From Thermoanaerobaculia bacterium (lineage in GTDB: Bacteria > Acidobacteriota > Thermoanaerobaculia > Multivoradales > JAIOJS01), in assembly GCA_019911795.1 (NCBI GenBank), contig JAIOJS010000252.1, forward strand, positions 1 through 48,895: 48,895 nt of DNA, in the 5' to 3' direction. Below the pieces are notes generated by a model. The model was given only the letters and a program-made list of their open reading frames with translations. It was not told where the DNA came from and did not search any database. Shown in pieces: positions 8,633-48,356 of this stretch. Each line of letters opens with the position of its first letter. Position 1 is the stretch's first letter. The position numbers were made by a program, and so were the translations under genes.

Positions 8633-11600
8633 TCAAGGTGAAACGACGGACCACGCCGACGTCGTCCCCGATTCGAAACCATCCGCGAAGATCGGACCGG
8701 TGCAGGTGAGCCTCATCGAATCGACGTTGGCGTCGAAGCTCGACCCGTTCGCGGTCCGCAGGGAAACGGCACACATCGCCGACGCTGTACCCAACGGAGA
8801 CCCAGTGGCCAACTGCTGCGAGATCCACACTCCGCCGGTGTTTCCGACCACCGAAGTGTTGATGCTCGTGCCGAGCGAACCGCCGGTACATCCCGCCTGG
8901 GAGAAGTACTGACAGATCTGGGTCGAATTGAGGATCTGCGGTGCCGCAATCTCGACGCGTTGCCGTAGATCGAAGGTGCACGACAAGCTCGGATTGAGGT
9001 CGATACACTGTCCCAGTGAAAAGTCGGTACTCGCACTGAGATTGACGACCTCGGCCGATCCCGAAACCGTGGCTGCATCGACATCGTCACTGCCATAAGC
9101 AACCTCCTCCGGTAGCGTACTCACCGCCGTCCAGGCCTGCAGATCACAGTCGAACGATCCGTTGATGAAGCGATTGTTTCTCTCGATACGGTAGCCGAGC
9201 ACGAAGTCTCCACCACTCGAACCATCGTCGTCACCGTCGAGGTCGTTGCCGGCCTCGTCGCGCAGGGCACCCGACCCGCAAGCGAACAGTCGATGCGGAG
9301 AATTCCCAAGGGGAACTCCGCCGTTGACCGACAGGGTCGCGGTGTTCGTGTTCGAGTTGAAAGTGACTCCGTCGACCGCTACCTGAATATCGTCGCCCAT
9401 CGCCCCACTGCAGCTCGTCGTCGAGATATCGCGATCGGCACCTGCCGCCACCAAGAGGTAGTTGCCGGGATTGGTCACATCCTCGGGATCGGTATCTCCC
9501 GCGGGATCGTAGAGAGCTTCGCTGAAGCTGATGAGCAGTTCGTCGACGCGCACTCGAACCTCTTCGCACTCGGTGACTTCGCCGTCCGTGGTCGAAGCGT
9601 TGGAGTCGACGCTTTCCACCGTCGGCGCGCTGTCGTCGATCGAGGTGTCTTCCGAAGTGTCGTTGTTGCCGGGCATTATTTCCGCGCCGCTGGCACTGAC
9701 CGTGACCGAGTTGGTGATGGGCCCGGCGCCGACGTTCGAGTTCACCATCACTTCGACGGTGTACTGCGCCATCGCCCCCACGGCAAGATCGCCTAGCTCG
9801 CAGACCGGTACTCCAACCGGGTCGTTGGCGCATCCCGTCGTGGCAACGAATGTCACACCGACCGGAAGGGTCTCCGTGACCTCGACCGAAGCGGCGGCCG
9901 AGGGTCCGGCATTGGTTACTTCGATGGTGTAGATCAGCGGGGCCGAGGGAGCCACCGGATCCACCGAGTCAGTCTTCACGATCGACAGGTCGAAGGTCCC
10001 TTGGTAGCCGAAGTCGGCAGAGTCGAAATTTTCACCCGCAGCGAGATTGACGACGAGCGGAATGTTCGCCGTGGTCAGGAGGAACCCAGCGGGGATCGTG
10101 GTGGAGTCCACCCGAACTTCATAGGTTCCAGTCGCCAGGTCCACGATGTCGTAGTCCCCACCCGCACCCGTGGTATCCGAGGGTTCTCCACCATCGAGAA
10201 CACCATTGGTGTTGAGGTCGAGATAGACGACCACGCCGGGGAGACCAGGCTCACCTCCATCTTGGACCCCATCAGCATTTTCGTCGCTCCAGACGAAGTC
10301 GCCGATCGTCGCGTCCTGTTGCTGATAGCCGAAGTCGGCAAAATCGTAGTTATCTCCCGCTGGCAGGATCACCGACAGTGGAACCGTTCCACCGGTCAGC
10401 ACGAAGCCCGTCGGAACGGTGGTCGGATCCACCCGGACGCTGTAGGTACCGGTGGCCAGATTTTCGATGTCGTAATCGCCGAGTCCATCACTGGTATCGA
10501 AGGGTTCGCCTCCATCGAGGACACCGTTGGTATTGAGATCGAGGTAGACAACGATTCCGGCAAGACCCGGCTCGCCCGCATCCTGGACGCCGTCGCCGTC
10601 CAGGTCATTCCACACAAAGTCGCCGATCGAAGCATCCTGCTGCTGGTAGCCAAAGTCGGCACTGTTGAAATCCTCTCCAGTCGCCAAGGGCACCGAAAGT
10701 GGCAGGTTGCTGGAGGTCAGATTGAAACCAGCGGGAAGGCTCGAAGCGTCGACCCGAACGCTGTAGCTGCCGGTGGCGAGGTCGGTAATGTCGTAGGAAC
10801 CCGATCCGATCGTGGTATCGAAAGGCTCGCCTCCGTCGAGAACACCGTTGGTATTCAAGTCGAGGTACACGGTGATCCCAGGTAGACCCGGCTCGCCACC
10901 ATCCAGGATACCGTCGCCGTTCAAGTCATTCCACACGAAGTCACCGATCGATGCGTCCTGTTGCTGGAAGCCGAAATCAACCCCCATCCGCTGCTCACCG
11001 GGGAAGAGCGAGAGCATCAGCGGATTGGTGCTGGTCGCCACGAAACCGGTCGGAGCCGTCGAGGTATCCACTCGCACCGTCACGCTCCCCGAAACCGGCG
11101 AAATGATGGAGTAGGCCCCCATGAGTCCGCTGGTGGCAAACGGCTCTCCTCCATCGCGGAGTCCGTTGGTGTTCAGGTCGATGAAGACGTCAACTCCGCT
11201 CAGGGTCGGTTCACCGCCGTCCCGGATCCCATCACCGTTGAGATCGTTCCACACGGAGCCGCTGACGCTTGGCTGCAGGGTCAGGATCGTGGGATCGTCC
11301 TCCCCCGCCTCCGTCGGATCACCATTCCCGTTGGGATCCGGATCCGTGCCATCCTCGGAGAGGTCGGACGTCATCGCTCCCCCTGCACTCATCGCACTGA
11401 CCGAAGCCTGATTCGAGTAGGTGCCCAGTCCAAAGCCCTGGTCGGTCACCGTCGTGACCAGCACCGTGAAGCGGAACCGCTCCGTTAATCCCGGAGCCAG
11501 GGTTCCCGAAGCGATGACCGTGTCGCTGCTGCCATTGAACCCACTATTTGCATCCAGGGCATGCTGAACTCCCACTAGGGCCGGAGGGGAGGTGATGGCG

Positions 11601-14600
11601 TAGTTGCCGGCGCCCAAGGTGGCGTCCAGATCATCGGTCAAGCTCACCGCCAGGAGACCACTCGGACCGAGGTTCTCGACCGCAAACTCGAAGGTCACCT
11701 CGCGGCCCACGACTTCGAATACGCGCTTCGCCGCCCCGATCGAGGCCGTGTCAATCGAAAAGACCGTCGGGTCACCCTCACCTATATCGGCGGGGTTGCC
11801 GGTACCGTTGGGATCGGGATCAGCACCGGCGTCCGAAAGATCCTGAGCCACGGTCGCGTTCGGACCGATTCCTGAAGCCAACACCTGGTTGGAGTAAACG
11901 CCTAGCCCCATGCCCTGATCCGACAGGGTCGTCACGTCGACCACGATCTGAAGTTGAGCGGTGTCACCGGCTCCCAGACTGCTACCCACGAAGAACAGCT
12001 CGGTAGTCGAACTGCCGTCCCAGACTGGGTTGAGGGTCGCAGTCCCCGGATCGTCGATCCATGCTGGAGAAGTGGTCACGCTGTAGTTGCCGGCCCCGAA
12101 GACCTCATCGAGATCCTCTCCCAGAGACAGGTCACTGAGGAGGACGTTGCCGAAGTTCTCCAGGTACAGGTCGAAGGTGACTTCGGTTCCGTTCAGAGTC
12201 GCACTCTTGGCCGCACCGAGGATCGACTCCTCTCCGATGATGGACAGAGTCTCGTCATTCTCTCCGGCCTCGTCGGCCACACCGTTGCCGTTCGGGTCAG
12301 TCAAAATTCCATCGTCGGATGTGTCCGTCAGTACATCCCCAAGTGGATCCTGACCGGTGACCGCAAATCCCGTTGGGTAGACTCCAAATCCATCGCCCTG
12401 ATTGCTCACATTAGTCACATTCAGAACAAGCCGAATCCGCGTCTTCTCACCGGGCTGCAGGGAACCATCAAACACCAAGAAGGTGTTGAAGGTCCCGTCA
12501 AAGGATGCATTGACAGAAAGGGTAGCCGGTCCCTCCATAACAACCGGCGAGCTTACCACGGCGTAGTTGCCGAAGCCGAACACCAAGAACAGATTGTGCG
12601 AGACACTAAGGTCGGTCGCCTCGACATCGCCGAGATTCTCGAGGTAGTAGTCCAACGTGATCTGGGTGCCGTTGACGAAGGAGTGGAGAGCGGCTCCAAT
12701 CGAGGCGTCGCCTAGGAAGAACAACGAAGGATCGTTCTCACCTGGGCTTGGCGGATTGGCCAAGCCAGGCTCGGTGGGATCACCATCCCCGTCGGGATCA
12801 GGATCGGTCCCGTCGTCGGAGAGGTCCGACACGATCAGCCCCGTACTGTCCGTCCCCACCACGGTCGCTTGATTCGAATAGATCCCGAGTCCCAGCCCCT
12901 GGTCCTCGACCTGGGTGACGTCGACGATCAGCTGGATCTGAGCCGTGGCTCCAGCGGCCAGGCTGCTAGAGGCCACCAACATTTCGACCGATCCACTGCC
13001 ATCGTAGGCTCCGTCGAGAACGAGGGTCCCCGGATCCACGATCAATGTCGGCCCGGTCGACAGGGTGTAATTGCCGGCCCCGAACACCATGTCGAGGTCA
13101 TCGACCAGGCTGAGATCGGTACTCGTCTCGGTCCCGAGATTCTCGAGATAGAGGTCGATCGTGACCTCGGTGCCGTTCAAGGTGATGTCTTTCGCTACCC
13201 CGACTACAGCGTCCGTCGTGATGGAGAAGGTCGTCGGATCGTTCTCTCCCGCCTCTCGCGGGTCGTCATTGCCGTTGGGGTCGGGATCTGTTCCAGCGTC
13301 GGAGAGATCGCCTACCGTGGTTCCACCCGGTTGCGCCGCCCCGACGCTGGCCTGGTTCGAGTAGTTGCCAAGACCGAAACCAAAGCCGGGATTGATCAGT
13401 TCCGTCACCGTCACCACAAACTGGATCTGAGCAGTATCGCCACCGCTCAAGGAGCTACCCGCTGCGAGAAGTTCCGTGACCGTGCTGCCATCGAAACTGG
13501 GTTCGAGGACCAGAGTACCTGGGTCATCGACAAAGAATGGCGCCGTGGTCACAGAGTAGTTACCGGAGCCAAAGACTGAGTCCAGGGAGTCCTGCACGCT
13601 CACATCGGACAGGGTCGTAGCCCCGAATGTCTCCAGATAGAGATCGAAGGTCACCTCGGACCCCGCCACCGACGCAGCCTTGGCCACTCCCAGAGTCGAG
13701 CCCACCACGAACTCGGTGGGATCATCTTCCCCGGCATCGGTCGGATCACCGTTGTCGTTGGGGTCGGGGTCCGTACCGGAATCGGAAAGGTCCGTGGTCA
13801 TGCCCGCGGACGGACCTTCCCCGCTCGCGGTGGCCTGGTTGGCGTAGACACCGATTCCCGAACCCTGATCGCTCAGCGTTATGACAAGGGCATCGATCCG
13901 AATCGTCGCCGAGTCTCCGGGACCCATCGTGCTTCCCGGCGCCAGGACCTCGGTATCGGTCGACCCGTTGTAGTTGGTATTGCGCACCAAGCCACCCCCC
14001 GTGTCCTCGAGGATCTCAGGATGGGGAAAGGAACCAGAATTGACAAAGGTGCCGTAGTTCCCCGCTCCGAAGACCGAGTCGAGTTCGTCGACCAACGAGA
14101 GGCTGGAAAGTTCCACGTTGCCCAAGTTCTCGAGGTACAAGAACATCGAAACCCGTGGCCCCGCTTGAACGGAATGAACTCCGCCAACGTCGACGCTCGC
14201 CGCCGTGGAGGGAAGAACCACGACCCGTTTGGCGACTCCGAGGACCGGGATCTCCGAGACGGAGATCGGCGTGGGATCGTTCTCTCCCGCTTCCGTGGGA
14301 TCGCCATTGCCGTTGGGATCGGGATCCGTACCGTCGTCCGAGAGATCTGAGGCCGGAGTGCCCGAGGATGTCATCGCGCTCGCGGTGACCTGGTTGGAGT
14401 AGTTGCCGAGACCACTCCCGAGATCCACTAGCCTGATGATTTTCACTTCGACTCTTATCTGTGCGGTAGCGCCGGCGGCCAACGTGCCACTGGCGACCAA
14501 TGCAAGGTCCGAAGACCCGTCGAATGAGCCATTGACCAGAAGAGTTCCGGGATCGTCGATCAAGACCGGACCACTGGTGACCGAGTAGTTCATGGCCCCG

Positions 14601-15826
14601 AACACCGCGTCGAGGTCTTCCCCTAGGCTCACAGCCTCGAGCTCGACGTTGCCGAGGTTCTCCAAATAGAAGTCGAGAGTGACGTCGCTCGCAGAGACCG
14701 AAGCATCCTTGGCGACCCCGAGCACGGGCTCCTCTCCGACCACGAACAGGGTGGGATCGTCCTCATCGGGATCGTTCGGTGCTCCGTTGCCGTTGGGATC
14801 GGGGTTGGTGCCGGCGTCCGAGAGGTCCGAGACCATTCCCCCGGTAGCTCCTTGTGCGGCTGCCGTTACCTGATTGGAGTAGACGCCGAAGCCCAGGCCC
14901 TGGTCGCTGACCGTCGTGATATCCACTACGAATCGGATCTGAGCGGTATCGGCGACGGCAAGGCTTCCGGACGCGATCAGTTCGTCATCCCCACTGCCAT
15001 CGAAGCTCCCATTCAGCGTCAACGTTCCTGGATCATCGATCAGGGTGGGCGGCGAGCTGATGTTGTAGTTCCCCGCCCCCAGTACGAGATCGAGGTCATC
15101 GGTCACCGAGACCGAGTTCAACAACCGATTGCCGAGGTTTTCCAGGTAGAGATCCACCGTCGCCAGCGTGCCCAACAGGCTCACGTTCTTGGCAACACCG
15201 ACGCGAGGGGACGCCGTGATGTCGATTACGGTCGGATCGTCCTCTCCCATTTCCGTCGGATCACCGTTCCCGTTTGGATCGGGGTCCGTGCCACTATCCG
15301 AGAGGTCCGAGGTGCCGTCGGCCGCTGCGATGACCTGATTGGAGTAGACACCGGCTCCCATCCCTTGGTCGCTGATGACATCGATCTCGACGACCAGTCG
15401 GATCTGCGCCGTATCGCCACCGGCAAGGGTTCCCGAGGAGATGATCTCCGTCGTCGTACTACCATCAAAACTAGGATCGAGGGTCAGAGTACCGGGATCG
15501 TCGATAAAGATCGGCGACGATGTCATGGTGTAGTTGCCCGCGCCGAACACCGTATCGAGGTCCTCGACGAGCGACACATTCGTCAGGGTCCCTGTATCTA
15601 GGCTCTCAAGGTACAGATCGAAAGTCACCTCACGTCCCGAAATGGTCGCCTGCTTCGCCGCACCGATGACCGCGTTGACTACCCCGGCATCGGCCGTATC
15701 CACGGCAAACAAGCTAGCGACGAGCCAAGTCACTCCCAAGAGGCCAATGTTCCAGCTTCTTGGCTTCCAGATTTCCGAAGTAGAGAGACGGGGACTCAAC
15801 TCGCGACGATCACTGCAACAACTCAT
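8633..15826 (-). CDS. Giant secreted multi-repeat surface protein (DUF11/SdrD-B type)
   Basis: This 2397-residue exported protein starts at ATG 15826 behind GGAGGT. A signal-like hydrophobic stretch (about 28-48, GLLGVTWLVASLFAVDTADA) comes first. Nine tandem domains of about 160 residues (53-1515) each begin near [VI][LIV]G[AV]AK and end in an acidic DLSDxGTDPDPNGNGDPT-like string that should bind calcium. Four SdrD-B-like repeats follow (1517-1942; WNDLNGDGIRDGGEP), then a DUF11 domain (1942-2065), a Big_5/SbsA-like region and a Cys-containing C-terminal domain. The end is IFADGFESGTTSAWS, a tail I recall from other secreted proteins of this lineage. No membrane anchor or LPXTG is present. 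Function is unknown; adhesion or surface-layer use is a guess. Confidence 0.85.
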   Translation of the reverse strand: MSCCSDRRELSPRLSTSEIWKPRSWNIGLLGVTWLVASLFAVDTADAGVVNAVIGAAKQATISGREVTFDLYLESLDTGTLTNVSLVEDLDTVFGAGNYTMTSSPIFIDDPGTLTLDPSFDGSTTTEIISSGTLAGGDTAQIRLVVEIDVISDQGMGAGVYSNQVIAAADGTSDLSDSGTDPDPNGNGDPTEMGEDDPTVIDITASPRVGVAKNVSLLGTLATVDLYLENLGNRLLNSVSVTDDLDLVLGAGNYNISSPPTLIDDPGTLTLNGSFDGSGDDELIASGSLAVADTAQIRFVVDITTVSDQGLGFGVYSNQVTAAAQGATGGMVSDLSDAGTNPDPNGNGAPNDPDEDDPTLFVVGEEPVLGVAKDASVSASDVTLDFYLENLGNVELEAVSLGEDLDAVFGAMNYSVTSGPVLIDDPGTLLVNGSFDGSSDLALVASGTLAAGATAQIRVEVKIIRLVDLGSGLGNYSNQVTASAMTSSGTPASDLSDDGTDPDPNGNGDPTEAGENDPTPISVSEIPVLGVAKRVVVLPSTAASVDVGGVHSVQAGPRVSMFLYLENLGNVELSSLSLVDELDSVFGAGNYGTFVNSGSFPHPEILEDTGGGLVRNTNYNGSTDTEVLAPGSTMGPGDSATIRIDALVITLSDQGSGIGVYANQATASGEGPSAGMTTDLSDSGTDPDPNDNGDPTDAGEDDPTEFVVGSTLGVAKAASVAGSEVTFDLYLETFGATTLSDVSVQDSLDSVFGSGNYSVTTAPFFVDDPGTLVLEPSFDGSTVTELLAAGSSLSGGDTAQIQFVVTVTELINPGFGFGLGNYSNQASVGAAQPGGTTVGDLSDAGTDPDPNGNDDPREAGENDPTTFSITTDAVVGVAKDITLNGTEVTIDLYLENLGTETSTDLSLVDDLDMVFGAGNYTLSTGPTLIVDPGTLVLDGAYDGSGSVEMLVASSSLAAGATAQIQLIVDVTQVEDQGLGLGIYSNQATVVGTDSTGLIVSDLSDDGTDPDPDGDGDPTEPGLANPPSPGENDPSLFFLGDASIGAALHSFVNGTQITLDYYLENLGDVEATDLSVSHNLFLVFGFGNYAVVSSPVVMEGPATLSVNASFDGTFNTFLVFDGSLQPGEKTRIRLVLNVTNVSNQGDGFGVYPTGFAVTGQDPLGDVLTDTSDDGILTDPNGNGVADEAGENDETLSIIGEESILGAAKSATLNGTEVTFDLYLENFGNVLLSDLSLGEDLDEVFGAGNYSVTTSPAWIDDPGTATLNPVWDGSSTTELFFVGSSLGAGDTAQLQIVVDVTTLSDQGMGLGVYSNQVLASGIGPNATVAQDLSDAGADPDPNGTGNPADIGEGDPTVFSIDTASIGAAKRVFEVVGREVTFEFAVENLGPSGLLAVSLTDDLDATLGAGNYAITSPPALVGVQHALDANSGFNGSSDTVIASGTLAPGLTERFRFTVLVTTVTDQGFGLGTYSNQASVSAMSAGGAMTSDLSEDGTDPDPNGNGDPTEAGEDDPTILTLQPSVSGSVWNDLNGDGIRDGGEPTLSGVDVFIDLNTNGLRDGGEPFATSGLMGAYSIISPVSGSVTVRVDTSTAPTGFVATSTNPLMLSLFPGEQRMGVDFGFQQQDASIGDFVWNDLNGDGILDGGEPGLPGITVYLDLNTNGVLDGGEPFDTTIGSGSYDITDLATGSYSVRVDASSLPAGFNLTSSNLPLSVPLATGEDFNSADFGYQQQDASIGDFVWNDLDGDGVQDAGEPGLAGIVVYLDLNTNGVLDGGEPFDTSDGLGDYDIENLATGTYSVRVDPTTVPTGFVLTGGTVPLSVILPAGDNYDFADFGYQQQDATIGDFVWSDENADGVQDGGEPGLPGVVVYLDLNTNGVLDGGEPSDTTGAGGDYDIVDLATGTYEVRVDSTTIPAGFLLTTANIPLVVNLAAGENFDSADFGYQGTFDLSIVKTDSVDPVAPSAPLIYTIEVTNAGPSAAASVEVTETLPVGVTFVATTGCANDPVGVPVCELGDLAVGAMAQYTVEVMVNSNVGAGPITNSVTVSASGAEIMPGNNDTSEDTSIDDSAPTVESVDSNASTTDGEVTECEEVRVRVDELLISFSEALYDPAGDTDPEDVTNPGNYLLVAAGADRDISTTSCSGAMGDDIQVAVDGVTFNSNTNTATLSVNGGVPLGNSPHRLFACGSGALRDEAGNDLDGDDDGSSGGDFVLGYRIERNNRFINGSFDCDLQAWTAVSTLPEEVAYGSDDVDAATVSGSAEVVNLSASTDFSLGQCIDLNPSLSCTFDLRQRVEIAAPQILNSTQICQYFSQAGCTGGSLGTSINTSVVGNTGGVWISQQLATGSPLGTASAMCAVSLRTANGSSFDANVDSMRLTCTGPIFADGFESGTTSAWSVVSP
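9999..11276 (-). repeat. Four in-frame ~106-residue SdrD-B-like repeats
   Basis: Four consecutive copies of about 320 bp inside the giant gene encode the same beta-sandwich unit: GDFVWNDLNGDG, DGGEPGLPG, a second Asp-Asn loop (DLNTNGVLDGGEP), a DLATG turn and a closing ADFGYQQQD. Each has two EF-hand-like Asp/Asn loops typical of calcium-stiffened SdrD B domains. Copies 2 to 4 are closer to each other than to the first, which suggests recent expansion. Confidence 0.8.
11277..15670 (-). repeat. Nine in-frame ~160-residue tandem repeats
   Basis: Nine copies of about 480 bp encode the same domain. Each has a G[AV]AK opening, a YLENLGN strand, a D[DE]LD.VFGAGNY loop, a DDPGTL segment, a GDTAQIRxVV strand, a SDQGxGxGVYSNQ turn and an acidic DPDPNGNGDP end. 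The fourth copy has extra residues near its start. The seventh is the most diverged: its GAALHSFVNG opening lacks the Lys, and it has PTGFAV where others have SNQ. Confidence 0.8.
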
Positions 15827-15963
15827 GACACCTCCAAGAACCAAAGAAACTTCCGGGGTCACCCATAGTAGGGACTCAAGGCTCAATGGTACTCCAGGCA
15901 AGGCTCTTTCCGGTACAGCGTCCTTCCGAGATCGATTAGCTCAGAACCCGCCGCGACCCGGCA

Positions 15964-25649: not shown

Positions 25650-26285
25650 ATGCCTCGATCCGCTACGTCCATGACGCTCACCCTCGCGCTCCTATTTCTC
25701 GTCGGCGTTTCCACTTCCCAGGCGATCGGTCCCCAGGATCCAGAGACCACGACCGAGGGTCCCGCAGCCGCCGTGGTGAAGCAACAAGTGGTCGTACTCG
25801 ACACCTCGCTCGGCACCCTGGTGATCGAGCTCGCCGAAGAAGGAGCGCCCCAAACCGTGGCCAACTTCAAACGACTCGTCGCCGAAGGCTTCTACGATGG
25901 CCTCCCCTTCTACCGCGTCGTGGCTGGCCACGTCGTCCAAGCCGGTGACGGCGGCGAGAACGATCAGCCCACCGTTCCCGGCGAGTTCGGCGTCCTCCCC
26001 CACGTCAACGGAGTGGTCGGCCTGGCCCGGGGCGAGGCCGAGGACAGTGGCAGTACCGAGTTCTACATCTGCGTTGCACCGCGGCCCCATCTCGACGGAC
26101 GGTACGCCACCTTCGGACGGGTCGTCGAGGGTCTCGACGTCCTTGCCGCCATCGCTGCGGTCGAAGTGGAGGAGCAGTGGCTGAATGACGGCCAGGTGGC
26201 CTTCCACAAGCCGCTGACTCCGGTTCTCATCGAGTCCGCTCGGCTCGAGGGACGATCAGACGCAGCCCCGGTGGACTCCGAGTGA
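25650..26285 (+). CDS. Exported cyclophilin-type peptidyl-prolyl cis-trans isomerase
   Basis: This 211-residue protein has a signal peptide (MTLTLALLFLVGVSTSQA) and a cyclophilin fold: LDTSLGTLVIELAEEGAPQT, FYDGLPFYRVVAGHVVQAGD, GVVGLARGEAEDSGSTEFYI, LDGRYATFGRVVEG. The FYRVV arginine and the FGRV segment match the active site; the usual Trp is absent. It should act in the periplasm on folding of exported proteins. The last 30 residues are not conserved. Confidence 0.9.
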   Translation: MPRSATSMTLTLALLFLVGVSTSQAIGPQDPETTTEGPAAAVVKQQVVVLDTSLGTLVIELAEEGAPQTVANFKRLVAEGFYDGLPFYRVVAGHVVQAGDGGENDQPTVPGEFGVLPHVNGVVGLARGEAEDSGSTEFYICVAPRPHLDGRYATFGRVVEGLDVLAAIAAVEVEEQWLNDGQVAFHKPLTPVLIESARLEGRSDAAPVDSE

Positions 26286-26321: not shown

Positions 26322-26362
26322 TGCGGCCGCAGTAGACTCTGAAGATAGATCCGGGCTAGCCC
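26322..26362 (+). promoter_or_regulatory. Promoter-like element, upstream copy (R1)
   Basis: GCGGCCGC (26323-26330), TAGACT (26333-26338), an 18-base spacer and TAGCCC (26357-26362) form the first of two nearly identical 38-base elements 180 bp apart. The -10 position is poorer than in the second copy. The same layout is seen at 3056-3095. Confidence 0.5.
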
Positions 26363-26410
26363 GGAGCGGTCTCTGGTGTCGTCGCGAGGCCGTGGAGAAG
26401 ATGGGGTTGG

Positions 26411-26483
26411 CGCGCTTTTGCCGTGGAGCTGAGCCGAGTCGTACTCGGGAGTCCGTCGCAGGCTCAGGGCCTCGGCAAACGCG
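26411..26483. other. Long imperfect hairpin between the two promoter-like copies
   Basis: CGCG plus TTTGCCG (26411-26414, 26417-26423) pairs with CGGCAAACGCG (26473-26483); CTGAGCC (26429-26435) pairs with GGCTCAG (26461-26467); and inside, CCGAGT (26434-26439) pairs with ACTCGG (26443-26448), which partly competes with the middle stem. A transcript from the upstream promoter copy would carry this structure as a leader, so it could be a regulatory RNA or a remnant mobile palindrome. Confidence 0.5.
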
Positions 26484-26501
26484 TGTCAGCTCCGTCCTAT
26501 C

Positions 26502-26542
26502 TGCGGCCGCAGTAGACTCCAGAGATAGATCCGGGCTAGGCT
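26502..26542 (+). promoter_or_regulatory. Promoter-like element, downstream copy (R2)
   Basis: Bases 26502-26539 match 26322-26359 at 35 of 38 positions. GCGGCCGC, TAGACT (26513-26518), an 18-base spacer and TAGGCT (26537-26542) are present. The predicted transcript start is only a few bases before the ATG at 26553, so transcription from this copy would be nearly leaderless; no ribosome site is visible. Confidence 0.55.
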
Positions 26543-26552
26543 CCGGGCACAC

Positions 26553-27923
26553 ATGCGCTACGGATTTGTCCTCGACCAGGACGCCTGCATCGGTTGCCAC
26601 GCCTGTACGGTGGCCTGCAAGGCGGAGAATGATGTTGTCCTCGGCGGCTTCCGTACCTGGGTCAAGTGGATCGAGCACGGCACCTTTCCCGAGATCTCCC
26701 GGTCCGCTGCCGTTCTGCGCTGCAATCACTGTACCGATGCTCCGTGTATCGAGATCTGCCCTACCGTGGCTCTCTTCAAGCGCGACAACGGGATCGTCGA
26801 CCTCGACCGCGATCGCTGCATCGGCTGTGCCTCCTGTCTCCAAGCCTGTCCCTACGACGCGATCCACATCGACGACCGTAGTGGTACCGCTGCCAAGTGT
26901 CACTTCTGCGCCCATCGGGTCGAGGTCGACCTGGCCCCCGCCTGCGTTTCAGTCTGCCCTGAGCACGCCATCTGGGTGGTTGATCTGGACGATCCCAGTA
27001 CTCGCGAGGAACTCGGCCGGAAGCGCGCCGTGGTTCGCAAACCAGAACGTCAGACGAAGCCCCAGACCTTCTATCTGGGCGCCGACCCAGCCGCTCTCGA
27101 TCCCTTAGCCGTCGACGGCACACGAACTCTCTCGCATGCACAGGTTCCCGATCCGATGCCGGCCGCAGGTACGGCCGAAGCACGGGCCGTCTACGACATT
27201 CCCAAGGCCCGTCCCTGGGGATCCAAAATCGCCGCCTACATGGTGACCAAAGCCCTCGCCGCCGGAGCCCTCTTCGCGGCTGCCCTCTCGCCATGGTGGA
27301 CGGCGCTGGACGGGCGCCTTCTCGGCTGGCTGAGCCTCCTCTTCACCGTCGTCACCTGTGTCCTCCTCATCTCCGATCTGCACCAACCCAAGCGCTTCTA
27401 TTTCCTCCTCACCAAGGCCAATCCCGGTTCATGGCTGGTCCGCGGCGGCTGGATCCTCACCGCTCACGGCCTGCTGAGCCTCCTCTGGGGCATCGGCCTG
27501 AACGCCTCTTGGCTGGCGGCGCTCTCGCTACCCGTCGCGATGGCGACGTCGGTCTACACTGCTTTCCTCTTCCGTCAGGCGAGGGGGCGGGAACTGTGGT
27601 GTGAGGATCCCCTCCTGCCCTGGGTTCTCGCCGCCCAGACTCTCGCCGCTGCGGCCGCTCTAGCCTGGTTCTTCCACCTCGAAGCCATCCTGACCCTGGT
27701 CCCGATCGCTCTGTTCGTCGGACTGTCGCTGGCAACTCTCGTGGTTCCCATGCCGACCCAGCAATCGCGCCAGGCTCACCGCTGGATGGTCCGTCACCCG
27801 GTGTTCGCTATCGGCATCGTACTGGCCCTGGCATCCCTCCTGTGGCCGCCGCTCGTCGTCGCCGCCTTCGGCGCCCTCGACTGGGCCTTCGTCAAGGCCG
27901 GCCAGGAGGTCGCCCTCTCATGA
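26553..27923 (+). CDS. Fused 4x[4Fe-4S] electron-transfer and NrfD/DmsC-type membrane subunit
   Basis: This 456-residue protein combines two subunits that are usually separate. Residues 1-140 hold four [4Fe-4S] cysteine sets (C12/15/18/22, C57/60/65/69, C89/92/95/99, C116/119/131/135), as in DmsB, PsrB and SoeB. Residues from about 225 on carry about eight membrane helices with an NrfD/DmsC-like layout (LLISDLHQPKRFYFLLTK resembles the D-L-x-x-P turn of that family). It should pass electrons between the cytoplasmic molybdoenzyme encoded next and membrane quinones. Its stop overlaps the next start (ATGA). Confidence 0.88.
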   Translation: MRYGFVLDQDACIGCHACTVACKAENDVVLGGFRTWVKWIEHGTFPEISRSAAVLRCNHCTDAPCIEICPTVALFKRDNGIVDLDRDRCIGCASCLQACPYDAIHIDDRSGTAAKCHFCAHRVEVDLAPACVSVCPEHAIWVVDLDDPSTREELGRKRAVVRKPERQTKPQTFYLGADPAALDPLAVDGTRTLSHAQVPDPMPAAGTAEARAVYDIPKARPWGSKIAAYMVTKALAAGALFAAALSPWWTALDGRLLGWLSLLFTVVTCVLLISDLHQPKRFYFLLTKANPGSWLVRGGWILTAHGLLSLLWGIGLNASWLAALSLPVAMATSVYTAFLFRQARGRELWCEDPLLPWVLAAQTLAAAAALAWFFHLEAILTLVPIALFVGLSLATLVVPMPTQQSRQAHRWMVRHPVFAIGIVLALASLLWPPLVVAAFGALDWAFVKAGQEVALS

Positions 27924-30550
27924 AGTACCTCCTCGAAGGGATGAACGCCGCTCCGCCTCCCGAACGCTGGGACGATTGGACCGAACTCGACGCCTCGGCT
28001 TGGCCGAGACGGGTCGAACGTAAGTTGAGCGTGGTACCCACCATCTGTTTCAACTGCGAGTCGGGCTGTGGCCTCCTCGCCTACGTGGACCAGGAATCGG
28101 GCGAAATTCGCCGTTTCGAGGGTAATCCTCTGCACCCCGGCAGTCGTGGCCGGGTGTGCGCCAAGGGACCGGCAACGATCAACCAGATCCGCGATCCCGA
28201 CCGTATTCTCTATCCGTTAAAGCGGGTCGGAAACCGCGACGAGGCCAGTTTCGAACGGGTTTCCTGGGAAGAGGTCCTCGACACCCTCGCATCTCGTATT
28301 CGTAAGGCTCTGCTGGAGAACCGACACGACGAGTTGATGTACCACGTCGGTCGCCCCGGACACGACAAGATGATGCACCACGTCCTCGGCGCCTGGGGGA
28401 TCGACGGACACAACAGCCACACCAATGTCTGCTCCAGTGCGGCCCGGCTTGGCTACACCGTGATGTGCGGCGGAGATCGCCCCTCCCCCGACTACGCCAA
28501 CGCCAAGACCACTCTGCTGCTCTCGGCCCATCTCGAGTCGGGGCACTACTTCAACCCACACGCCCAGCGCATCATCGAGGCTCAGCAAAAGGGTGGCAAG
28601 CTGATCGTGATGGATCCGCGGCTCTCCAACACCGCGGCCAAGGCCGATCTGTGGCTCCCAACCTGGCCGGGCTCCGAGGCGACGGTGCTCCTCGCCATCG
28701 GCCATCGGCTGCTCACCAGCGGTCGGGTCGATCTCGACTTCCTGCGCGACTACACCAACTGGCAGGACACGCTGCAGCATCTACAAGCCGGGAACGACAC
28801 CTCCTCCGCAGCCGGCTTCGACGAGTTCCTAGCCATACTCACCGCCCACTACGCCGAGTACACCTTCGAGCGGGCGACGGCGGAGAGCGGGGTCGATGCC
28901 GAGCGCCTCGAACGCACCACCGACTGGATCGCCAACGCCGGCTCGGCCTTCTCCAGCCACGTCTGGCGCGGTCCTGCTACCGGCAACCTCGGGGGATGGC
29001 AGATCGCCCGCGCCGTCCAACTGATCAACGTGCTCACGGGATCGGTCGGCGCCAAGGGCGGCACCTCCCTCGCAGGGTGGAACAAGTTCGTCCCCGACGC
29101 GCCCACCCCACCGGGTAAGCAGAACCGCTGGAACGAACTCCTCTACCCGGCGGACTACCCCCTGACCTTTCACGAGATGAGCATCCTGCTCCCCTACCTC
29201 GTCGACAGCGACCATCGAATCGACACCTATTTCACCCGCGTCTTCAACCCGGTCTGGACCTACCCCGACGGCACGGCGTGGATCGACCTGCTGTGCGACG
29301 AGGAGCGCATGGGATGCCATGTCGCCCTGACCCCAACTTGGAACGAGACGGCACGCTACGCCGACTTTGTCCTGCCGATGGGACTGTCGGCCGAGCGCCA
29401 CGATCTCGTCAGCCAGGAGACCCACGCCGGATCCTGGATCGGCTTCCGACAACCGATTCACCGAGTGCTCGCCGAGCGCGCCGGCGAGACGGTCGAGGCA
29501 ACGTGGGAAACCAATCCGGGTGAGGTGTGGGAGGAGGAGGAGTTCTTCCTCGAGCTCTCCTGGCGCATCGACCCCGACGGTAGTCTCGGAATCCGCCGCC
29601 ACTTCGAGTCTCCGTACCGCCCCGGCGAGAAGACGACCCTCGACGAACGCTACCGCTGGATCTTCGAGAACTCGGTCCCGGGCCTCCCCGCCGCGGCGGC
29701 AGCGAAGGGAATGACGCCGCTCGAGTACATGCGACGCTTCGGCGCCTTCGAAGTCACCAAGGACGTCTACGAGGTCCATCGCGAGAAGGGCTTCGGAACT
29801 CCCAGCGGCAAAATCGAGATCTTCTCCCGGACCCTCGAGGATTGGGGCTGGCCGGAACACTCGATGCCGGGATCGATCACCAGTCACGTCGCGAAGTCGG
29901 AGCTCACTGAGGACGAGATGGTCCTGATCCCGACCTTCCGACTCGCAACCCTTATCCACTCTCGCTCGGCGAACTCCGAGTGGCTCTACGAAATCAGCCA
30001 CAACAATCCGCTGTGGATGCATCCCTCCGACGCGGCTCGACTGGGCGTCGACGAACAGAGTCTCGTTCGAGTCGCCACCTCGATCGGGCACTTCGTGCTA
30101 CGCCCCTTCGTCACCGAGGGACTGCTCCCCGGCATCGTCGCCTGCAGCCACCACCTCGGCCGCTGGCACGTTCCCCGTGACGGAGACAAGACGTCACGCT
30201 GGGCCAGCGCTCCGGTGGCGATGACCCGCGACGGTGACATCACTCGCTGGAGACGCTTGGGAGACGAGGAGCACGAACCCGGCTGGTGGCGCGAGAGCGG
30301 CGTCCATCAGAACATCACCTTCCCCGTCCACCCCGACCCGATGAGCGGCATGCATTGCTGGCATCAGAAAGTGCGCGTCTCCGCAGCCGAGAGTGGGGAT
30401 CGCTTCGGCGACATCCTCGTCGATCGCGGGCGTGCTCAACAGGTGTATCAACAGTGGCGGGCGATGACGCGAAAGCCCGAGGGAGAACTACGGCGACCGC
30501 TCTGGCTGCCCCGATCGATGCGACCGACCGATGAGGCATACCGCTTCTAG
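27920..30550 (+). CDS. Molybdopterin oxidoreductase, SoeA-like (probable cytoplasmic sulfite dehydrogenase)
   Basis: This 876-residue catalytic subunit belongs to the DMSO-reductase family. Residues C43, C46, C50 and C80 bind a [4Fe-4S] cluster, and Cys171 in HTNVCSSAARLG is the probable molybdenum ligand. PTICFNCESGCGLLAYVD, NPLHPGSRGRVCAKGPAT, RPSPDYANAK and AHLESGHYFNPHAQR resemble, as I recall them, SoeA of the sulfite-oxidising SoeABC complex. There is no Tat signal, so the enzyme faces the cytoplasm, as SoeA does. Thiosulfate, polysulfide or another oxyanion remain possible substrates. ATG 27920 is fixed by its overlap with the upstream stop. Confidence 0.82.
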   Translation: MKYLLEGMNAAPPPERWDDWTELDASAWPRRVERKLSVVPTICFNCESGCGLLAYVDQESGEIRRFEGNPLHPGSRGRVCAKGPATINQIRDPDRILYPLKRVGNRDEASFERVSWEEVLDTLASRIRKALLENRHDELMYHVGRPGHDKMMHHVLGAWGIDGHNSHTNVCSSAARLGYTVMCGGDRPSPDYANAKTTLLLSAHLESGHYFNPHAQRIIEAQQKGGKLIVMDPRLSNTAAKADLWLPTWPGSEATVLLAIGHRLLTSGRVDLDFLRDYTNWQDTLQHLQAGNDTSSAAGFDEFLAILTAHYAEYTFERATAESGVDAERLERTTDWIANAGSAFSSHVWRGPATGNLGGWQIARAVQLINVLTGSVGAKGGTSLAGWNKFVPDAPTPPGKQNRWNELLYPADYPLTFHEMSILLPYLVDSDHRIDTYFTRVFNPVWTYPDGTAWIDLLCDEERMGCHVALTPTWNETARYADFVLPMGLSAERHDLVSQETHAGSWIGFRQPIHRVLAERAGETVEATWETNPGEVWEEEEFFLELSWRIDPDGSLGIRRHFESPYRPGEKTTLDERYRWIFENSVPGLPAAAAAKGMTPLEYMRRFGAFEVTKDVYEVHREKGFGTPSGKIEIFSRTLEDWGWPEHSMPGSITSHVAKSELTEDEMVLIPTFRLATLIHSRSANSEWLYEISHNNPLWMHPSDAARLGVDEQSLVRVATSIGHFVLRPFVTEGLLPGIVACSHHLGRWHVPRDGDKTSRWASAPVAMTRDGDITRWRRLGDEEHEPGWWRESGVHQNITFPVHPDPMSGMHCWHQKVRVSAAESGDRFGDILVDRGRAQQVYQQWRAMTRKPEGELRRPLWLPRSMRPTDEAYRF

Positions 30551-30559
30551 TGGCTGCGG

Positions 30560-31909
30560 CTATGCCGTGGGATCAGCGTCGGAAAGCTCTTTGGGGGTCG
30601 AGTCGAGGTCCGCCGGCGGTGAGGTCGGAGAATCCCGATTGGGCAGCAGGTCCACCAGACGTAGATCATGAAGCTCTTCGTCGCGGACACGTCGTAGGTC
30701 GTCGCGAAGAGCGTCGAGCCGGCTCCAGTCCGGGCCGGAGCTGTGCTCCAGCATCGCGTCGACCGGGCCGTTATAGCTACTGAGGATCTCCTCCACTCGA
30801 AGCTCGTGAGCGTCACGTCCGAGCATCAGTCCGTCGCCGCCGGTAGTCACCACCAGGCCATGGCTCAGGAGGGGACCGATCGAGTCGTCGAGCACTTGCG
30901 GTGGAATCCCTAGGACCTGTCCCAACTCCTCCGGCGTGCAGAGCGGATCACCGCGGCGGAGAGCTTGAGCCAAAGCAATCAACGCCGCGAGTCCCACCCA
31001 GGGTCCGTGAGCGCGAGCGTCGACTCGGCGTCCATAGAGCAAACTCTTGAAGTGCTGCCCAACGTAAGCAGCCTCGGCTCCGAGCAGAATCGCTCCCCAG
31101 GCAATCTGGATCGAAATCATGAAAAAGATCGCGATGGCAAAGCTGCCGTAGACAATGCCAAGTTGACTGAAGTTGCCGGTGTAGTAGGAGAAGGGTCGAC
31201 GCAAGAGTTCGAGTAGAAAAGCCGCAACCAGACCGCCCACTAGTGCCCATCGAAAGCGGACTCGTGCCCGCGGCACTTGCCAGTAGAGCATGGTAAGGCC
31301 TGCGGCCGTGATCAAGAACGGCAACGCTCCGAGGACGAACGACTCCTCGAGGAGGACCCCGAAGGCGATGTGACGCCGCGCCATGACGAAGAGAGAGAAC
31401 ATCGCTGCCGCCAACACCGGCCCCCAGAACAGCACCAGGGCCAGCGAAAGGACCTTGGCTCTGATCGACGCCCTCTCGCTCACCCGCCAGATCTTGTTGA
31501 TGGTCTCCTCGATCGTGTGCAGGGTATTCACGCCCACGAAAAGAAAGGCGAGAAGCCCCAATCCTTGGAGCGATTCCGCCTGATGGGTATAGAGCTCGAT
31601 CTTCTCGGTGAGAGCGCTCTCGCTGTAGGGCAGCGCGCTCATCAAGACGTCGAGAAGTCGGTCCTCGTATTGATCGACCAGTCGCGTTCCCATAAAGCCG
31701 AAGACGGCGAGCAGGGGAACTATCCCGAGCATGGTGGCAAAAGCCAGCGCTGCCGCCTTCAGGGTGATCGCGTCCTCGCTCGACTTGGTGACCACCAACG
31801 ATGCGAAATCGCGCAGAGTCCTGAAACGCTCCTGCCAGTTCCCCTTCAGCTCTAGACCGTTCAGGCGTGAACGATCATCCCGCGAAGTCGTCGAAGTGCC
31901 ATCGCTCAT
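30560..31909 (-). CDS. YihY/BrkB family inner-membrane protein
   Basis: This 449-residue protein has the YihY/virulence factor BrkB pattern: an amphipathic start, KAAALAFATMLGIVPLLAVFGF, a long periplasmic loop, LGLLAFLFVGVNTLHTIEETIN, then paired membrane helices with YYTGNFSQLGIVYGSFA and IQIAWGAILLGAEAAYV. The C-terminal 150 residues resemble a winged-helix segment (GDPLCTPEELGQVLGIPPQVLDDSI) and an acidic tail. The family was once called ribonuclease BN in error. ATG 31909 is preferred: TACCAT lies eight bases upstream and no ribosome site is seen, as if leaderless. Confidence 0.9.
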   Translation of the reverse strand: MSDGTSTTSRDDRSRLNGLELKGNWQERFRTLRDFASLVVTKSSEDAITLKAAALAFATMLGIVPLLAVFGFMGTRLVDQYEDRLLDVLMSALPYSESALTEKIELYTHQAESLQGLGLLAFLFVGVNTLHTIEETINKIWRVSERASIRAKVLSLALVLFWGPVLAAAMFSLFVMARRHIAFGVLLEESFVLGALPFLITAAGLTMLYWQVPRARVRFRWALVGGLVAAFLLELLRRPFSYYTGNFSQLGIVYGSFAIAIFFMISIQIAWGAILLGAEAAYVGQHFKSLLYGRRVDARAHGPWVGLAALIALAQALRRGDPLCTPEELGQVLGIPPQVLDDSIGPLLSHGLVVTTGGDGLMLGRDAHELRVEEILSSYNGPVDAMLEHSSGPDWSRLDALRDDLRRVRDEELHDLRLVDLLPNRDSPTSPPADLDSTPKELSDADPTA

Positions 31910-31979
31910 GTGGCCGCATGGTACCACCGTGAAACACCCCGCGACGCCGCTGCGTAGTGCTGTTCAGGAGGAAAACCAA

Positions 31980-48196: not shown

Positions 48197-48356
48197 CTAG
48201 TGTCTGGCTATTCCCTTCTACATTGGGCGAGGTCATCTGCGTTCCTGGCAAGACGCGACGACGAGCAGTACTGGGAGTATTCTGAGGAGAAGCAACGCCG
48301 CCAGGGGCGGAAAGGACCCGTCCAATGTGGAAGGGAATAGCCAGGCGGGGCACTAG
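48197..48356. repeat. 160-bp inverted-repeat element (MITE-like or long hairpin)
   Basis: CTGGCTATTCCCTTCTACATTGG (48204-48226) and its reverse complement (48322-48344) match at 22 of 23 positions. Outer CTAGTG (48197-48202) pairs with CACTAG (48351-48356), and weaker complementarity runs about 22 bases inward. It has no ORF of its own and fills most of the 300-base gap between two genes. Its right end overlaps the candidate -35 of the next gene. No clear target-site duplication is seen. Confidence 0.7.

Follow-up and report, generated by a model that had tools for sequence, protein, structure and literature searches.

Hairpin-forming repeats of bacterial genomes

The ERIC elements of enterobacteria are imperfect intergenic palindromes of about 127 bp with a conserved structure, and for some IS families MITEs with a short palindromic target of the YTAR type have been reported. 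The Correia elements of Neisseria (CREE, or NEMIS) are dispersed intergenic elements of about 100-157 bp with inverted repeats that fold into hairpins; their insertions differ between strains and can create or alter the promoters of neighbouring genes, and in Neisseria new promoters as well as processing by RNase III have been shown (PMC2649163). REPs, in turn, are 20-40 bp long and carry at one end an unpaired tetranucleotide, GTAG or CGTC, and TIR-associated Y1 transposases have been described from Acidobacteria (PMC3733652).

Here, we analyse a palindrome of 184 nt at positions 26356-26539 of the window, i.e. of the whole stretch of 48,895 nt under study, and the dispersed family to which it belongs, which we call F1. 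F1 can be likened to ERIC by description, as an imperfect intergenic palindrome with a conserved structure, although the host lineages are unrelated and the boundaries and lengths differ. With the YTAR-type MITEs it shares being short and non-coding, the inverted repeats, CTAG, TTAG or TTAA at both ends and empty sites with a single CTAG, while differing in an interior that is fully hairpin with conserved pairing. Correia elements may be compared to F1 through their mode of action alone, both being dispersed, intergenic, mobile and made of inverted repeats that form hairpins; however, size and ends are different, and Correia elements are described only from Neisseria. More loosely, F1 resembles REPs, BIMEs and TIR palindromes, which are dispersed extragenic palindromes that in part form dimers or clusters (PMC3733652), but with its 184 nt, its CTAG at both ends and its location away from Y1 genes it departs from REPs in size, tag and transposase association. 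We found no description of F1 in Rfam or in the literature searched, which leaves many subscription papers outside, and F1 is apparently an undescribed family of a known kind.

A long hairpin and its dispersed relatives

An earlier note on this DNA had reported two copies of a 38-nt element on either side of a hairpin of 73 nt. The direct repeat is present as claimed, with 35/38 identical positions in copies 180 nt apart on the + strand (copy 1, 26322-26359; copy 2, 26502-26539), whereas the best 38-nt match across 100 dinucleotide shuffles of the 1 kb around it was 26/38. The hairpin has to be redrawn, namely as an imperfect one of 184 nt and 70 pairs spanning 26356-26539, and copy 2 is consequently its 3' arm and not a flank. 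Copy 1 lies just beyond the 5' end of the hairpin, and the CTAG in which it terminates (26356-26359) provides the hairpin's first four nucleotides, with the perfect palindrome CCGGGCTAGCCCGG (26351-26364) at the junction. Folding of the region 26322-26552 yields -132.9 kcal/mol (z of -6.45; as good a fold in 0 of 200 shuffles), which makes it the top 200-nt fold outlier of the whole window, and the element by itself reaches -121.1 kcal/mol. An assembly artefact was rejected as an explanation, given the numerous differences between the arms and the presence of the family in many assemblies; a scan for viral contig patterns gave none. Paired operators looping over 180 bp were also considered, and no evidence for them was found.

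One could argue that such a structure is a leader specific to the operon, of an attenuator or riboswitch-like type, in which copy 1, the left arm and copy 2 pair in alternative ways. Namely, the fold is very stable, and more so on the + strand, and copies 1 and 2 can each pair with the left arm. We regard this as highly improbable, given that the hairpin is missing from the sister operon and from homologous-gene loci in other phyla, that it has no Rfam match at the gathering score (sub-threshold hairpin matches only), that the other copies adjoin unrelated genes, and that it would not be co-transcribed if the mRNA started near the ATG.

By blastn, the region had no significant second copy in its own genome, in 59 and 72 genomes of relatives, in plasmids or in phages, and relatives of the hairpin were detected by structure-aware models only. 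A covariance model of the single hairpin (R1) detected relatives over their full length in several of the order's genomes, and a second copy in the window's own genome, on contig C109. A model of 14 copies (R2) matched 42/71 genomes of the order, with at least 37 matches apiece in several of them; these counts follow strict filters and are lower bounds where they reach 37, and draft assemblies may miss copies. No R2 match was seen in 673 kb from 80 loci, mostly of other lineages. In the window, R2 scores the hairpin at 130.4 bits over its full length, in canonical orientation on the + strand. As the window copy is part of R2, a separate profile of sequence alone was made from 33 other copies, with the window copy left out, and it matches 26356-26539 at full length with an E-value of 7.5e-9, the best match of the window. 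The aligned copies have the common ends CTAGCCYGR...YCRGGCTAG, a pattern also written CTAGCCYGR...TTCTCACC, and share an inner motif in each half, CGTCGCGAGG (left) and GCCGCAGTAGAA (right).

The covariance check of the hairpin in related genomes that the earlier note had proposed comes out clearly: in the RNAalifold consensus of the 14-copy alignment, 36 of the 55 pairs show at least one compensatory double change, i.e. the pairing is strongly conserved. This conservation, however, is a property of a mobile family and not of the molybdoenzyme operon, and the other F1 copies adjoin unrelated and varied genes. What is more, 110 of 114 other copies fold better on the canonical strand (mean of -111.8 vs -92.8 kcal/mol), which has more G.U pairs. 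Since the copies share ancestry, we do not count this preference as proof of RNA function; it would agree with one strand being recognised or functional, and is not independent evidence.

The ends of the element are equally regular, CTAG being found at both in 68 of 115 copies, with the commonest deviations one base away; in the window the two boundaries are at 26356-26359 and 26536-26539. Matched pairs other than CTAG also occur (TTAG/TTAG, n = 3; TTAA/TTAA, n = 1) and suggest a target duplication of 4 nt at YTAR; beyond CTAG, no duplication was found in the F1 copies. In addition, for two copies the insertion site is empty in a congeneric genome (the pair G009 and G041). In one case, the filled locus L182 reads TTG-CTAG-element-CTAG-GATCC and the empty locus L378 reads TTG-CTAG-GATCC, with a single CTAG; in the other (L297 filled, L377 empty), the joined flanks align closely, while the junction is CTAG in the former and GAAG in the empty site. 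Several features by which a MITE is recognised are found in F1, namely a length of 184 nt with no coding capacity, a full-length imperfect palindrome, dispersal among varied neighbours, and target duplication with empty sites, the L297/L377 pair differing at the junction tetramer.

We therefore read 26356-26539, very probably, as a dispersed, apparently non-autonomous palindromic mobile element of MITE/REP-like type that was inserted at the promoter of the operon, next to what is left of the right end of another copy, rather than as part of a two-promoter switch. Sequence comparison establishes the grounds of this reading, i.e. family membership with conserved folding, the CTAG boundaries, two empty sites and an uninterrupted sister locus. 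That said, only two F1 copies are known in the window's genome and none in the sister, from which it follows that the family has not been recently active in the former.

Probable insertion at the operon promoter

Upstream of the hairpin lies a gene for a cyclophilin-type peptidyl-prolyl isomerase (25650-26285, +), and downstream, as judged by Pfam as well, lie an FeS-NrfD fusion gene (26553-27923, +), the first of the molybdoenzyme operon, and a molybdopterin oxidoreductase gene. In the sister locus L051 (78% protein identity), which also has the cyclophilin gene upstream, the intergenic region measures 54 nt and contains neither repeat nor hairpin. If 26322-26535 is removed from the window, 53 nt of intergenic sequence are left, and the right-hand CTAG comes to stand opposite a CTAA of the sister. 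This CTAA begins the hexamer TAACCT, of the form TAnnnT, 10 nt before the ATG, and in the window the right-hand CTAG runs into TAGGCT (26537-26542, +), a putative -10 box at the same distance, half of it element and half old flank. Homologs of the gene in Planctomycetota and Acidobacteria (L052-L057) likewise have TAnnnT 7-11 nt before the ATG. A hexamer at such a conserved distance points to an operon mRNA that is leaderless or nearly so and to a -10 that has been retained, with TAGGCT as the candidate active box. Beyond the stretch from CTAR to the ATG, the two intergenic sequences align poorly, and the exact point of insertion, placed at the -10 by comparison with one sister genome, therefore rests on length and on CTAR; with this in mind, we infer an insertion at the -10 of the operon.

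The earlier note had proposed that the 38-nt element is a duplicated promoter, with copy 1 giving an mRNA with a hairpin leader, copy 2 a nearly leaderless one, and the two being differently regulated. The identity of 35/38, the presence in both copies of TAGACT and ATAGAT, which could act as AT-rich boxes, and the closeness of copy 2 to the ATG would all agree with such an arrangement. However, the 38-mer forms the right terminus of a family that is dispersed, and it occurs in unrelated places of other genomes; one half of the hexamer at the conserved distance lies beyond the repeat, and copy 1 has TAGCCC in its place, without the T of a -10; repeat and hairpin are both missing from this operon in the sister species; and a scan of the region with the sigma-70 consensus gave no match. 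We thus find two promoters improbable, if a little less so than the structured leader. The note's other suggestion, a palindromic insertion that duplicated the promoter, stands as regards the insertion and falls as regards the duplication, the 38-mer being the right end of the element itself.

The preferred reading, i.e. insertion of a mobile element, would have the following local consequences. F1 would have entered at a CTAR site that forms the start of the operon's -10 box, and the right-hand CTAG, joined to the old flank GCT, would have kept a hexamer of -10 type, TAGGCT, as far from the start codon as before; the sequence upstream of the -10 would now be the right arm of the element. With a start just before the ATG, the operon mRNA would lack the hairpin, which would be found only in transcripts that read through from the cyclophilin gene. 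The F1 copy is most likely a mobile palindrome without a dedicated role in the operon, and its likely local effect is a replaced sequence upstream of the -10 and a hairpin added to cyclophilin read-through.

As for copy 1, the likeliest reading is a second F1 copy cut down to its right end and joined to the full element through the common CTAG. Taken alone, it aligns to family positions 150-183 of the 33-copy profile without significance (E of 14), the fragment being too short, and we identify it by its 35/38 match to the right end of the full copy. In L331 and L365, too, full F1 copies are adjoined by end fragments of a similar kind. Copy 1 may have arisen through a nested insertion at CTAG followed by deletion, or through local rearrangement.

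An account by a mobile element replaces a story of regulation specific to one gene, and it brings with it a covariance model for a family found in most sampled genomes of the order. What is more, a palindrome that lands on CTAR within a leaderless -10 could keep the -10 and replace the upstream promoter, a possible route of rewiring. In annotation, such repeats should not be read as duplicated promoters or riboswitches.

Another F1 copy at a comparable site is found at L182:1501-1684 (G009), exactly 10 nt before a start codon (CTAGGATCCAGCGC-ATG), with its empty site in G041; the gene that follows is a frame of 300 codons, arginase-like by its first residues. TAGGAT precedes this frame in the empty and filled states alike, in parallel to the window. 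That F1 generally prefers -10 boxes just before start codons is unsupported, TAnnnT being present at 4/17 close ends vs 25/167 CTAG ends overall.

Two further observations concern the operon itself. After a relative of the same genus, the closest proteins to the FeS-NrfD protein of the stretch 26553-30550 come from Planctomycetota MAGs, at 65-70% identity, compared with at most 49% for other members of its own order, which suggests horizontal transfer. The planctomycete homolog L052 has, upstream of its operon (before 4001), a repeated palindromic block (TTCTTCAACGGGCTGC...), apparently another dispersed repeat.

Mobilisation and other families bounded by CTAG

In 40 stretches around Y1 transposase genes, we found no transposase partner of F1, and the family is apparently non-autonomous. 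It is possible, though less likely than not, that the same element moves in the manner of REPs, as single-stranded DNA and through a Y1 (RAYT/TIRYT) transposase, in which case CTAG would be the cleaved tetranucleotide on each side and there would be no true target duplication. The strong fold preference for one strand would speak for such a route, as would nine Y1_Tnp matches in the window's own genome and left and right tetramers that often differ by one base. Yet those 40 stretches contained a single F1 copy, about 4 kb away, and no copy of F2, the family described below; the identical TTAG and TTAA pairs favour target duplication, and the strand preference may come from one ancestral copy. 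An association of F1 with RAYT genes was accordingly not found in these stretches with Y1_Tnp matches. Flanks of the RAYT-like Y1_Tnp matches of the own genome (e.g. G000:C589, C274 and C559) are without F1 or F2 palindromes.

The window also contains a copy of F2, a second hairpin family bounded by CTAG, at 48197-48356 (+; 31.1 bits with R2). F2 has the ends CTAGTGTCCCGTYTGGYTA, a length of about 165 nt and some 30 or more copies in its own genome, and the F1 model matches it weakly. A third such family is seen in L183 and L185 (G018 and G010), with the form CTAGTACTGCTGG...CCAGCAGTACTAG. F1 and at least two other CTAG-bounded families might tentatively be grouped as an undescribed superfamily of long hairpins that extends across the order and keeps its fold on one strand, a grouping to which we give less than even weight. 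If it is real, this would suggest that a single-stranded form, of RNA or of DNA, is under selection, be it because the element moves in this form or because it acts on neighbouring mRNAs, and where YTAR lies in a -10 box, insertions would rewire promoters with the -10 kept.

Two other features of the window may be mentioned. Downstream of the molybdoenzyme operon, 30560-31927 (-) encodes a BrkB/YihY membrane domain fused to an Rrf2-type regulator domain, the Rrf2 match being just under the curated cut-off. Finally, 8633-15901 (-) is a frame of 2422 codons with repeats spaced at about 480 nt, and likely encodes a large repetitive surface protein.
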